Below are positions 33,558 to 51,558 of a stretch of 64,000 bases of DNA, piece by piece. Below the pieces are notes generated by a model. The model had not been told where the DNA came from. It ran no database searches and saw only the letters and a list, made by a program, of their open reading frames with translations. Made by a program: the position numbers and the translations under genes. Source of the stretch: Pseudomonadota bacterium (GTDB taxonomy: Bacteria; Pseudomonadota; Gammaproteobacteria; Steroidobacterales; JBCBZW01); the NCBI GenBank assembly GCA_039815145.1, contig JBCBZW010000013.1, positions 1 to 64,000 on the forward strand. The letters run 5' to 3'. The first letter of the stretch is position 1, and each line of letters starts with the position of its first letter.

Positions 33558-34199
33558 TCAACCCAATTGATGATCGCCCATGGCAAGCCTAAGCCTCCGA
33601 ATAGCGCGATACTTAGTCTTGTCGAATTGATCTGGGGATAGTGCCAATTCCTCACAGACGTCGTTCTTCTCGGCATCCAACAACTGAGAAATGAGGAGGC
33701 GTCGGTCTCGTTCCATTCTTAGAGTACTGATACGCGACTTTAGGTGGCAATGCACTTGCTCATGGAAGACTGTATCCTCCGCACTCCTCGCATTCGACTC
33801 CAGCTGGTCTAGCTGCGAAGTCGAAAGATGACTCTCCCTTCCCCGCCTCCTCCAGATCTTGAAGACCATGTTCCTCGCGACAGCGATCGCATAGGCAACG
33901 CACGGACCCGAGATCTCACCTGCACGACGCTTGGTGATAGTGACGACTAGCGTCTCCTGCATCACGTCGTCCTCGGCCATTGGATCCAAATCAAATCGTT
34001 TGAGATACCCTCTGAGTCGAGGAATTAGCTCTCTCAACAGCCCACCCTCGTCCTCGAATGGACCGCCAGTCGCCGACGGATCATGCGGTGATACTCCTCG
34101 TTCCCCCGCACGACTCGAACCTGCGGAGTCGCACCCAGCGACGAGGACCTTTCCGTCCGCGTAATCAGCTCTAGAACTCTCTTCCATCGCGTCCTCCAT
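33558..34199 (-). CDS. RNA polymerase sigma factor, ECF-like
   Basis: The 213-residue protein shows sigma region 2 (LLRELIPRLRGYLKRFDLDPMAEDDVMQETLVVT, with the AYAIAVARNMVFKIWRRR segment) and region 4 (ISQLLDAEKNDVCEELALSPDQFDKTKYRAIRRLR). The N terminus of about 55 residues is low complexity and not conserved. GC content is lower than in surrounding genes. It follows the winged-helix gene after 204 bases, and no anti-sigma factor is seen. Confidence 0.8.
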   Translation of the reverse strand: MEDAMEESSRADYADGKVLVAGCDSAGSSRAGERGVSPHDPSATGGPFEDEGGLLRELIPRLRGYLKRFDLDPMAEDDVMQETLVVTITKRRAGEISGPCVAYAIAVARNMVFKIWRRRGRESHLSTSQLDQLESNARSAEDTVFHEQVHCHLKSRISTLRMERDRRLLISQLLDAEKNDVCEELALSPDQFDKTKYRAIRRLRLAMGDHQLG

Positions 34200-34403
34200 C
34201 AGCGGTGAATCAAGCGAATACGATCTTCGCCAACCGCTGCGGAGATGAGCTGATGATCTTCTATGGGATATCTACATGCAGTCTCCAGGGGACTACGGGC
34301 AACTGAACCGAGTCTCCATTCGAAGTGGAGTTTTCTGACAAGAGTCTGACGAGGAGCTTACAGTTGGATGCTGACCCGCACTGCTACCGCAGCCCGAGGT
34401 GCA

Positions 34404-35141
34404 CTAGTGGGGTTTACTGAGAAACCGAGCCAGCGCGGTAGCGGCCTTCTGCGCTAGCTCTTGCTGACGCAAGACTGACTTCCATGTGTCCAGAGGCAAC
34501 TCGAAGTCGCAACAGCCAATCAGGTGACCATCGACGCGCGTCCGAAGCTTGAATAGAACCCTAAGACCTTCTTCAGAGAGCAGTGCAGTTCCCGTTATCA
34601 TAAGGTCAGACTGTGGGTCTATTGCTGAGTCGCTATCAATCACCCTAAATGGAGAATTGCCCTGACCCCAGAGCGCGTGAAGCAGTAGCGCGCGAAGACT
34701 GCCGAGTGAGTCTACGACTTGGTCACTTTGGGATAGTGACTCGATGGGACCTACCGATACCGAGGGCAGCGCTGCCCGCGCCCCAACCCCTGTTCTCTCC
34801 TCGAACGGCGACCGCTCTACTCTTGAAACAGGCTGACAGAGTCGATAACCAACGCCTCGAGCGTTGTGAATGTACCTAGCCTGGCGGGAACATTGGAACA
34901 AGCTGCGTAGCTGACGGACCAGCGAGTGGACCGAGTTGTTTAGCATGGCTGATTGATTCCAAACGGCAGTGTCGATCGCCGTATATGGTACGACCTCTCC
35001 CGGTGACTCGATCAAGAGTTGAAGCAACTTAAGGGGCTTCAGCGGAATTTGCCGCTCAGGCTCACCCGGTCGCCGCAAGGTCATGGCTGCGGTGTCCACG
35101 AGCACGTCACCTATGAGCCAGAGCGGAGACTGCGCACTCAT
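34404..35141 (-). CDS. Winged-helix regulator (OmpR/CadC-type DNA-binding) without membrane anchor
   Basis: Residues 5-105 form an OmpR/PhoB-type winged helix (PLKPLKLLQLLIESPGEVV, YIHNARGVGYRLC). CadC-like regulators follow this with a membrane helix; here the linker leads straight to a C-terminal domain (DLMITGTALLSEEGLRVLFKLR, QQELAQKAATALARFL) that resembles the TolB/FlgO-like sensory part of CadC-type proteins. The protein is therefore predicted soluble. Its ATG overlaps the stop of the preceding ECF sigma gene, showing translational coupling. The gene is lower in GC than the neighbourhood. Confidence 0.78.
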   Translation of the reverse strand: MSAQSPLWLIGDVLVDTAAMTLRRPGEPERQIPLKPLKLLQLLIESPGEVVPYTAIDTAVWNQSAMLNNSVHSLVRQLRSLFQCSRQARYIHNARGVGYRLCQPVSRVERSPFEERTGVGARAALPSVSVGPIESLSQSDQVVDSLGSLRALLLHALWGQGNSPFRVIDSDSAIDPQSDLMITGTALLSEEGLRVLFKLRTRVDGHLIGCCDFELPLDTWKSVLRQQELAQKAATALARFLSKPH

Positions 35142-35746
35142 CGTGTAGGCTCGCCGACAGCACGATCAAAAATGGCCCGAAACCTACTCCTGGCCCGGTA
35201 CAGCAATCGATCGAATTGGCGACTGGTCACACCTAAGGATGCGCAGATTGACTGCTTTCCCTCCTCGTGCAGGTAAAGGCGCCTGAGAATCTCTCGATCT
35301 CGGGACGTCGCTTCTTGAAGTGCTGATAGGCACCGCTCCACTTCCTCAATCAGCTCTGTGGTTGTTTGAGGACCGGGACCAGGATCTAGCTGTTCGTCGA
35401 CATCGCTGTATGTCTGAGCTGAAGCATGTCGTCTGTGCTGGTTGATCGCGACGTTTCTTACAACCGCGGCAACATAGGCAGTCAGATTGGAGCCCTTGTG
35501 GAGCGACCCGGTACGCAGGCGCTGTAGAACCCGCATTAGCGCTTCTTGGGCGAGATCGTCCGCCGAGAGATCTTTGTCCCCAGCATAGCGACGAGCTAGT
35601 TGCAGAGTAGGCCGATAGACAATCGCAATGAATTGATTCTCGGCTCCACCATCGCCACTGGCTATCCGGTCGGCGAGGTCGCACAGCACCTCGGCACTAG
35701 ACCGGGTCGACTCGGGTTCGGCCTCAGGCTCGCGTTTATCACTCAT
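35138..35746 (-). CDS. ECF-family sigma factor
   Basis: The 202-residue protein has region 2 (YRPTLQLARRYAGDKDLSADDLAQEALMRVLQRLR, AAVVRNVAINQHRR) and region 4 (LQEATSRDREILRRLYLHEEGKQSICASLGVTSRQFDRLLYRARSRFRAI). It heads the operon ahead of the winged-helix gene, which it overlaps by four bases, and a second sigma factor lies downstream. No zinc-type anti-sigma gene is present, so activity may be set by expression or by the winged-helix partner. Confidence 0.85.
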   Translation of the reverse strand: MSDKREPEAEPESTRSSAEVLCDLADRIASGDGGAENQFIAIVYRPTLQLARRYAGDKDLSADDLAQEALMRVLQRLRTGSLHKGSNLTAYVAAVVRNVAINQHRRHASAQTYSDVDEQLDPGPGPQTTTELIEEVERCLSALQEATSRDREILRRLYLHEEGKQSICASLGVTSRQFDRLLYRARSRFRAIFDRAVGEPTR

Positions 35747-50279: not shown

Positions 50280-50306
50280 TTAGCACTCTGCCTGAGTGAG
50301 TGCCAG
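50280..50306 (-). promoter_or_regulatory. CIRCE operator (HrcA-binding site) upstream of groES
   Basis: TTAGCACTC (50280-50288), a nine-base spacer and GAGTGCCAG (50298-50306) match the CIRCE consensus TTAGCACTC-N9-GAGTGCTAA with two changes in the right half. It overlaps the expected transcription start of the promoter at 50309-50336, so the HrcA repressor would block initiation. hrcA itself is not in the window. Confidence 0.85.
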
Positions 50307-50308
50307 CG

Positions 50309-50336
50309 ATGATAGGCCCGCGGTTTTCACTGTCAA
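50309..50336 (-). promoter_or_regulatory. Sigma-70 type promoter of groES-groEL
   Basis: On the minus strand the -35 box TTGACA (plus 50331-50336) and -10 box TATCAT (plus 50309-50314) are spaced by 16 bases. They sit just upstream of CIRCE. No sigma-32 boxes were seen here, fitting control by HrcA rather than RpoH. Confidence 0.8.
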
Positions 50337-50487: not shown

Positions 50488-51558
50488 CTAGCGCTTCTCG
50501 AGGAGATCTGCCGCGGCGCTCACGGCCTCGCGCGCGGACCCGGCGAAACCGTCGGCGCCACAGGTCTTCCAGGCCCCGGGGGCGGCGGCGAAGGCGTGGC
50601 CGCCCACCAGCACCTTGGCCCGCACGCCGCCGTGCTGCTGCAGGGCGCCAACGGCCTCGCGCAGGGTGCGCAGCTGGATGCTCATGGACGCGGCGAGCAT
50701 CACTACGTCCACGGAGAAGTAGCTGGCGGCGGAGACGAGGTCGTCCACAGGCACGTCCTTGCCGAGGAAGTAGACCCGCCAGCCGTCGAGCTCCAGAAGA
50801 TGCGCGATCGCGCGCATGCCGAGGTCGTGGTGATCCTCGGGGATGGTGGCGGCGAGCACGGAGCGCTCGTTGGCGGACACCTCGGGGGTGGCGTGGTCGG
50901 CCACCACGCTCATGGCGCGCTGGGTGGTGCTGGTAATCAGGTGCTCTTCGGCCACGGTGAGCTGGTTGAGGTGCCACAGGCGGCCGGCTTCGATCTGGGC
51001 GGCCATCAGCACCTCGCCGATGATCACCCGGGGGTCCACGCCATCGGCGACGGCCTTGGTGAGCACGGCGATGGCGTCGCGCACATCACCCTCGAGCGCG
51101 CGCTGCAGGTACTCGATGGCGAGCGCACCGAGGGGCGAGTGCAGATCGACGTGGCTCTCGGGCTGCTCGGGGCCGCTGCCCTCCATCAGCACCGACGCCT
51201 CTTCGAGCAAGGCCACGGGTTCGGCGCGCGCGTTGTCCGGGAGTCGCGCCTCCAGCACGTGCCGCAAGGCGACCAGGCTGGCGCGAACCGCCTTGGCGTT
51301 CACCCCACGTACATCGAAGGACTGCCAGGACCAGACGACGCGACTCAAGAACAGATCGGCCTGCCCCGTGGCCACGGCCGCCGCCAGCTCGCGCACGCGC
51401 AGCTGCAGGTTGTCGCGCCAACGCATCTCGGCCCGCGGCGCGAAGGTGGCCTTGACGTCGGGATGGGCCGCGAGCAGTTCCTCGGCGGCCTGGGCCGCGT
51501 AGCCCTGGGCCCCTACCTCCAGCAGCTCACCGGCGAAGGGGTTGGCGGAAATGGCCAT
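50488..51558 (-). CDS. B12-binding protein with CarH/LitR-type light-sensor motif, no MerR domain
   Basis: The 356-residue protein has a helical N terminus (about 1-125, including RWRDNLQLRVRELAAAVATG), a B12-binding helical cap (130-235) and a Rossmann B12 domain with DHHDLG, where H244 would be the lower ligand. The cap has W195-H196 and then E205-H206, exactly the W-H...Wx9EH pattern of CarH/LitR photoreceptors. In CarH the residue after Trp binds cobalt after light exposure. There is no MerR DNA-binding domain. The start at ATG 51558 begins the conserved part. Divergent from the DUF819 permease. Confidence 0.82.
   Translation of the reverse strand: MAISANPFAGELLEVGAQGYAAQAAEELLAAHPDVKATFAPRAEMRWRDNLQLRVRELAAAVATGQADLFLSRVVWSWQSFDVRGVNAKAVRASLVALRHVLEARLPDNARAEPVALLEEASVLMEGSGPEQPESHVDLHSPLGALAIEYLQRALEGDVRDAIAVLTKAVADGVDPRVIIGEVLMAAQIEAGRLWHLNQLTVAEEHLITSTTQRAMSVVADHATPEVSANERSVLAATIPEDHHDLGMRAIAHLLELDGWRVYFLGKDVPVDDLVSAASYFSVDVVMLAASMSIQLRTLREAVGALQQHGGVRAKVLVGGHAFAAAPGAWKTCGADGFAGSAREAVSAAADLLEKR

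Follow-up and report, generated by a model that had tools for sequence, protein, structure and literature searches.

The gene at positions 50488-51558 of the window, by which we mean the whole 64,000-nucleotide stretch of DNA analysed here, raised the question of whether it encodes a light-sensing B12 protein without a DNA-binding domain and, if so, through what such a protein would signal. The ORF lies on the minus strand, with an ATG start at 51558 and a stop codon at 50488-50490, and its 356-residue translation carries W195-H196 and E205-H206 (W-x9-EH), as well as H244 within DHHDLG, exactly where the original prediction placed them. A genome of the same genus encodes an orthologue that is 92% identical and likewise adjoins groES-groEL; dN/dS between the two is 0.07, which marks the gene as genuine and under constraint throughout. 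Its layout is as follows.

50488..51558, minus strand: globin-B12 photosensor gene (photocobilin-like), 356 aa, from the ORF and its translation
51184..51558, minus strand: residues 1-125, phycobiliprotein-like globin (photoglobin, or BV-binding domain of photocobilins), from profile, fold and alignment
50884..51135, minus strand: residues 142-225, cap helices of the cobalamin module, bearing G192xxW195-H196 and E205-H206 (PF02607, 4.7e-13; conservation)
50491..50865, minus strand: residues 232-356, Rossmann B12-binding domain, with the lower ligand H244 and G266xxxP270 (PF02310, 2.8e-21; fold)

Within the protein, Pfam recognizes B12-binding_2 at residues 149-218 (4.7e-13) and B12-binding at 233-349 (2.8e-21); it assigns no accepted family to residues 1-140 and finds no MerR domain anywhere in the 356. 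Together with the globin fold of the N terminus, this upholds the claim that there is no DNA-binding domain.

Light-responsive cobalamin domains are set apart from others by the motifs GxxW, EH, GxxH and GxxxP, a signature defined and tested in PMC11796333, where 128,000 mined sequences were reduced by clustering to 1561. GxxW, EH, GxxxP and the ligand histidine are all present in the putative photosensor, the sole departure being E241 in place of the glycine of GxxH. Among 94 full-length homologues, a count in which some rows are the same gene twice, that glycine is found in 82 and the complete signature in 79, while W195, E205 and P270 are conserved in all 94, H244 in 93 and H206 in 91. The histidine that follows the cap tryptophan, as in CarH, occurs in 61/94; the residue at this position is Gln in SasPcob and Tyr in AbDPcob (PMC11796333). 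When solved structures were searched by sequence, SasPcob was the best match (1.2e-21), followed by the corrinoid protein 1y80, CtMerR, AbDPcob and CarH. The predicted fold of the full protein (pLDDT 92.3, pTM 0.86) gives the same picture, with residues 140-356 of the model matching photocobilins at Z 27.2-27.9, CtMerR at Z 23, and AerR (7te2), MetH, a monomethylamine corrinoid protein and CarH at Z 20-22. The proposed kinship with light-responsive B12 photoreceptors is therefore borne out, photocobilins being closest by both sequence and fold.

As for the N terminus, which had been taken for a new helical domain replacing MerR, profile and fold instead identify a phycobiliprotein-like globin. 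A profile built from the N-terminal domains of 19 orthologues matched the BV-binding globin of SasPcob (1e-6), that of AbDPcob (0.006) and allophycocyanin (0.05), and the Pfam Phycobilisome family (PF00502) matches two of the orthologues, at best with 6.7e-5. Modelled alone (pLDDT 90.7) and searched against known folds, a check that the original prediction had proposed, the domain resembles allophycocyanin (Z 16.2), smURFP (15.6) and residues 228-345 of SasPcob (Z 15.0), and its best 50 fold matches are nearly all phycobiliproteins, fluorescent proteins of the same fold or photocobilins. Since plain Foldseek gave weak E-values (0.01-0.1, with a TM of about 0.7), it is the sequence profile and the fold jointly that carry the assignment. 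The photosensor is a photocobilin/photoglobin relative with the domain order globin-B12.

The photocobilins SasPcob and AbDPcob (PDB 8J2W/8J2X/8J2Y; PMC10979010) share with it a CarH-type cobalamin module, a phycobiliprotein-like globin and the lack of a DNA-binding domain, and they provide the best or near-best sequence and fold match for both of its parts. In contrast to these photocobilins, its globin is N-terminal, the residues Asp270 and His137 that contact BV in SasPcob are replaced, a His rather than Gln or Tyr follows the cap Trp, and no DGC or other output is fused. CarH and class II LitR have the same cobalamin module and the W-H...EH...H residues, but they carry a MerR domain where the photosensor has its globin. 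AerR/PpaA antirepressors are likewise B12-domain regulators that have no DNA-binding domain of their own and act on a partner. Photoglobins are reportedly the subject of Schneider et al. 2022. They are globin-B12 fusions like the photosensor, with a CxQD/SxQD motif in the globin (PMC10151467). CxQD/SxQD members, some of them adjoining histidine kinases, form a branch of our own tree (L092, L095 from Adhaeribacter, L101, L105, L114, L115), whereas the branch of the photosensor lacks CxQD (W47-R-D-N50) and has R54/E57 where photoglobins have His/Tyr. The globin-B12 architecture is thus not new, given these photoglobins and the predicted, uncharacterised photocobilins with an AdoCbl domain at either end in the 2024 paper (PMC10979010). 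Of a rebuilt bilin site combined with a CarH-like His and an association with ECF sigma genes we found no instance in the literature searched.

Full-length homologues occur in 17/59 genomes, a set made up of the host and its relatives within the order, and also in other phyla, several in number; the isolate Thioalkalivibrio sp. XN8 (L075) carries one. With its rebuilt bilin site, the subfamily is a natural case for the role of the phycobiliprotein fold once its pigment site has changed. Single-sequence searches of genome contigs and viral contigs returned no relatives; an alignment query, unlike the single sequence, did recover them. The photosensor and its sister sit on a long branch of the tree (1.16 changes per site) and, because of this and of E241 in place of the Gly of GxxH, function could have drifted. 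One gammaproteobacterial genome (G015) holds three divergent globin-B12 copies on a single contig (L013/L083, L036/L082, L037/L096).

We mapped the bilin site through an ungapped alignment with SasPcob, whose His108 and Trp296 in the paper are residues 102 and 290 of the chain. Asp270 corresponds to N50, the Cys of CxxD to W47, Trp296 to W76 and His137 to D273. Among the biliverdin-contact residues Asp270, His137 and Trp296, only the Trp is therefore kept; W47-R-D-N50 replaces the CxxD/CxQD motif, and R84 is retained along with W76. Trp47 without Asp50 is found in 81/94 homologues, the photosensor among them, position 50 being mostly His or Asn and the group usually having R54, E57 and Asp/Glu273. 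Asp or Glu occupies position 273 in 79 of the 83 homologues without Asp50. W76, the Trp that touches both chromophores, is retained in 93/94 and R84 in 88/94. Asp50 itself persists in 11/94, several times as CxQD/SxQD, and in most of these proteins Gln follows the cap Trp. A link between Asp50 and the residue after Trp195 was considered and set aside: 10/11 Asp50 proteins lack His196, but this reflects only 3-4 changes on the tree, which gives the association no independent support.

From these replacements we infer that biliverdin binding by the globin is weak or none. AbDPcob, in which His takes the place of Asp270, is a poor BV binder with about 20% occupancy (PMC10979010), and since this accepted photocobilin also lacks Asp270, the loss of contacts speaks more against bilin binding than against kinship. 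A true two-chromophore photocobilin, with biliverdin or another bilin in the altered pocket and sensing extended to red, would fit the intact globin fold, the near-universal W76 and R84, the low dN/dS within the globin domain, and AbDPcob, which still takes some BV (PMC10979010). We nevertheless think this rather unlikely, given that the equivalents of Asp270 and His137 and the CxxD motif are all replaced and that the genome encodes no PF01126 heme oxygenase. That enzyme is also absent from 16/17 carrier genomes, its frequency being 1/17 in carriers and 1/42 in non-carriers (59 genomes, kinship ignored). Because it is rare overall (4/50 homologue genomes examined), including in genomes that keep Asp50, its absence alone is no proof of bilin loss, and we dropped heme oxygenase as a discriminator between the Asp50 and Trp47 groups.

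For the signal output of a B12 photoreceptor without a DNA-binding domain, the gene neighbourhoods of the subfamily offer concrete, testable partners. An ECF sigma gene lies at most two genes away in 16/79 loci, which span Acidobacteriota, Planctomycetota and Gammaproteobacteria, sometimes with an anti-sigma gene; one such locus (L065) reads fasciclin (FAS1), ECF sigma, RskA_C anti-sigma, photosensor, and the photosensor gene of L059 likewise has sigma and anti-sigma genes as neighbours. ECF sigma genes fill 16/291 gene positions within two genes versus 1/497 at distances 4-11, with a nominal p of 1e-6 that, like all our neighbour and co-occurrence statistics, ignores kinship. Elsewhere in Gammaproteobacteria the gene has CMAS-type, DUF1365, FAD-oxidoreductase and SDR genes close by, and such neighbourhoods resemble the class II LitR region that is induced by light in Pseudomonas (PMC9758184), where genes of these types are found. 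FAS1, CMAS, SDR and DUF1365 genes turn up repeatedly around the loci but are not concentrated within two genes relative to distances 4-11, so we claim as tight neighbours only ECF, anti-sigma and RND genes. Across the 59 genomes and with kinship ignored, DUF1365 is present in 16/17 carriers versus 15/42 non-carriers (p 3e-5) and reaction-centre genes in 6/17 versus 3/42 (p 0.013). Several Asp50-keeping homologues directly precede a histidine kinase gene. These neighbours suggest light signalling by contact with a partner protein, and the predicted signalling through a partner is plausible in view of the ECF sigma/anti-sigma and photo-oxidative-stress-type genes. A full-text literature search found no account of such a connection between an ECF sigma factor and a B12 photosensor.

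Two further features of these loci may be recorded. An RND efflux pump gene lies directly upstream, on the same strand, of alpha- and gammaproteobacterial copies (L048, L049, L050, L055, L057, L063, L042, L043, L082, L054, L068), a membrane-fusion gene usually preceding the pump gene, which may hint at efflux under light control. Two histidine kinase genes (L115:1450-2631, L092:2143-3573) overlap the stop codon of bilin-Asp globin-B12 genes, which suggests translational coupling.

The reading that we consider probable is an AdoCbl light switch of the photocobilin/photoglobin family, in which the N-terminal globin is a relay with weak or no biliverdin and the output is protein contact. Judging from the residues present, we expect AdoCbl to make the protein a switch for green light and bilin to bind weakly or not at all, and by homology with CarH and SasPcob we infer an AdoCbl-bound dimer in the dark and photolysis in green light. 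In the dark, AdoCbl would lie between the cap and the Rossmann domain; H244 would bind cobalt from below, W195, E205 and H206 would hold the adenosyl group, and the dimer would be favoured. In green light the Co-C bond would be cleaved and the adenosyl group would leave, after which H196 could fill the vacated site on cobalt, as its counterpart does in CarH, but SasPcob monomerises without bis-His ligation, which makes the significance of H196 uncertain. The cap helix bearing E205/H206 and the dimer interface would move, the globin would serve as relay or as protein-contact surface, probably with little or no biliverdin, and contact with a transcription partner would lead to a light-stress response. 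Gene context in relatives points to an ECF sigma/anti-sigma pair or a histidine kinase as the likeliest partner there. More tentatively, and as a possibility that we would rate clearly below the general scheme, this may be a bilin-free subfamily with light-dependent ECF sigma/anti-sigma contact, in which B12 photolysis switches a sigma factor without a DNA-binding photoreceptor.

The host also appears to have the means and the reason to use such a switch. Its genome encodes a PF01923 adenosyltransferase for AdoCbl synthesis, carries two reaction-centre genes and encodes, on other contigs, three short AerR/PpaA-like B12-binding proteins (L003, L004 = L129:6071-6958, L005), one of them immediately before a PpsR-like PAS-HTH gene; the genes that follow read by eye like bacteriochlorophyll genes. 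On the strength of the reaction-centre, AerR-like, PpsR-like and apparent bacteriochlorophyll genes, the host resembles an anoxygenic phototroph, which would have cause to sense light. The same paralogues, and the one before the PpsR-like gene in particular, lend something to a different reading, a sensor of B12 form or redox state that makes no use of light in vivo, the family reading the state of its cobalamin; this would recall certain AerR/PpaA proteins to which redox roles have been ascribed, and the AerR fold (7te2) matches at Z 21. We regard it as improbable, because W195, E205, H206 and P270 are kept family-wide, whereas the EH pair is lacking in all three AerR-like paralogues, which have no globin either, and because the neighbours in relatives resemble light or photo-oxidative-stress genes. 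Another host contig contains an FAD oxidoreductase-DUF1365-CMAS-CMAS cluster (L126:6404-11692), which may consist of genes for fatty-acid modification that respond to light or singlet oxygen.

That the protein is a corrinoid carrier for a methyltransferase is very hard to credit: the NCBIfam MtbC/MtgC models match with E ~1e-19 but reach 69.2 and 68 bits against cut-offs of 350 and 370, all NCBIfam corrinoid models fall far under cut-off, a globin is fused at the N terminus, and the neighbouring genes encode chaperonins, DUF819 and endonuclease V with no corrinoid methyltransferase. The original prediction named a close match to a methyltransferase corrinoid subunit with its methyltransferase partner as counting against it; no corrinoid model reaches its cut-off, no such partner is encoded beside the gene, and the best solved matches are photocobilins, so that kinship with B12 photoreceptors that respond to light is supported over kinship with the corrinoid proteins of methyltransferases.

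At its own locus, groES-groEL follows downstream on the same strand and a divergent DUF819 gene lies on the other side; no ppsR, sigma factor, kinase or stress gene is next to the photosensor. The 251-bp gap before groES holds two elements outside the photosensor gene, both also present in the sequence of the same-genus genome.

50309..50336, minus strand: strong sigma-70-like promoter of groES-groEL, 11/12 consensus matches
50280..50306, plus strand: groES-groEL operator for HrcA, an inverted repeat resembling CIRCE with 2 mismatches (chance expectation 0.01)

Since this gap contains a promoter and a CIRCE element that belong to groES-groEL, the chaperonin operon is separate and a shared operon is rejected. 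The conserved same-strand adjacency in the two genomes might still suggest a regulator of groES-groEL, an idea with next to nothing left to it, as the operon has this promoter and operator of its own and groESL is not among the recurrent neighbours of other homologues; the adjacency is probably incidental. Two ECF-type sigma genes of the window (33558-34199 and 35138-35746) were rejected as partners, being a separate minus-strand pair 15 kb from the photosensor with no anti-sigma profile match. A winged-helix-like regulator gene sits between them (33558-35746), apparently unrelated to the photosensor.
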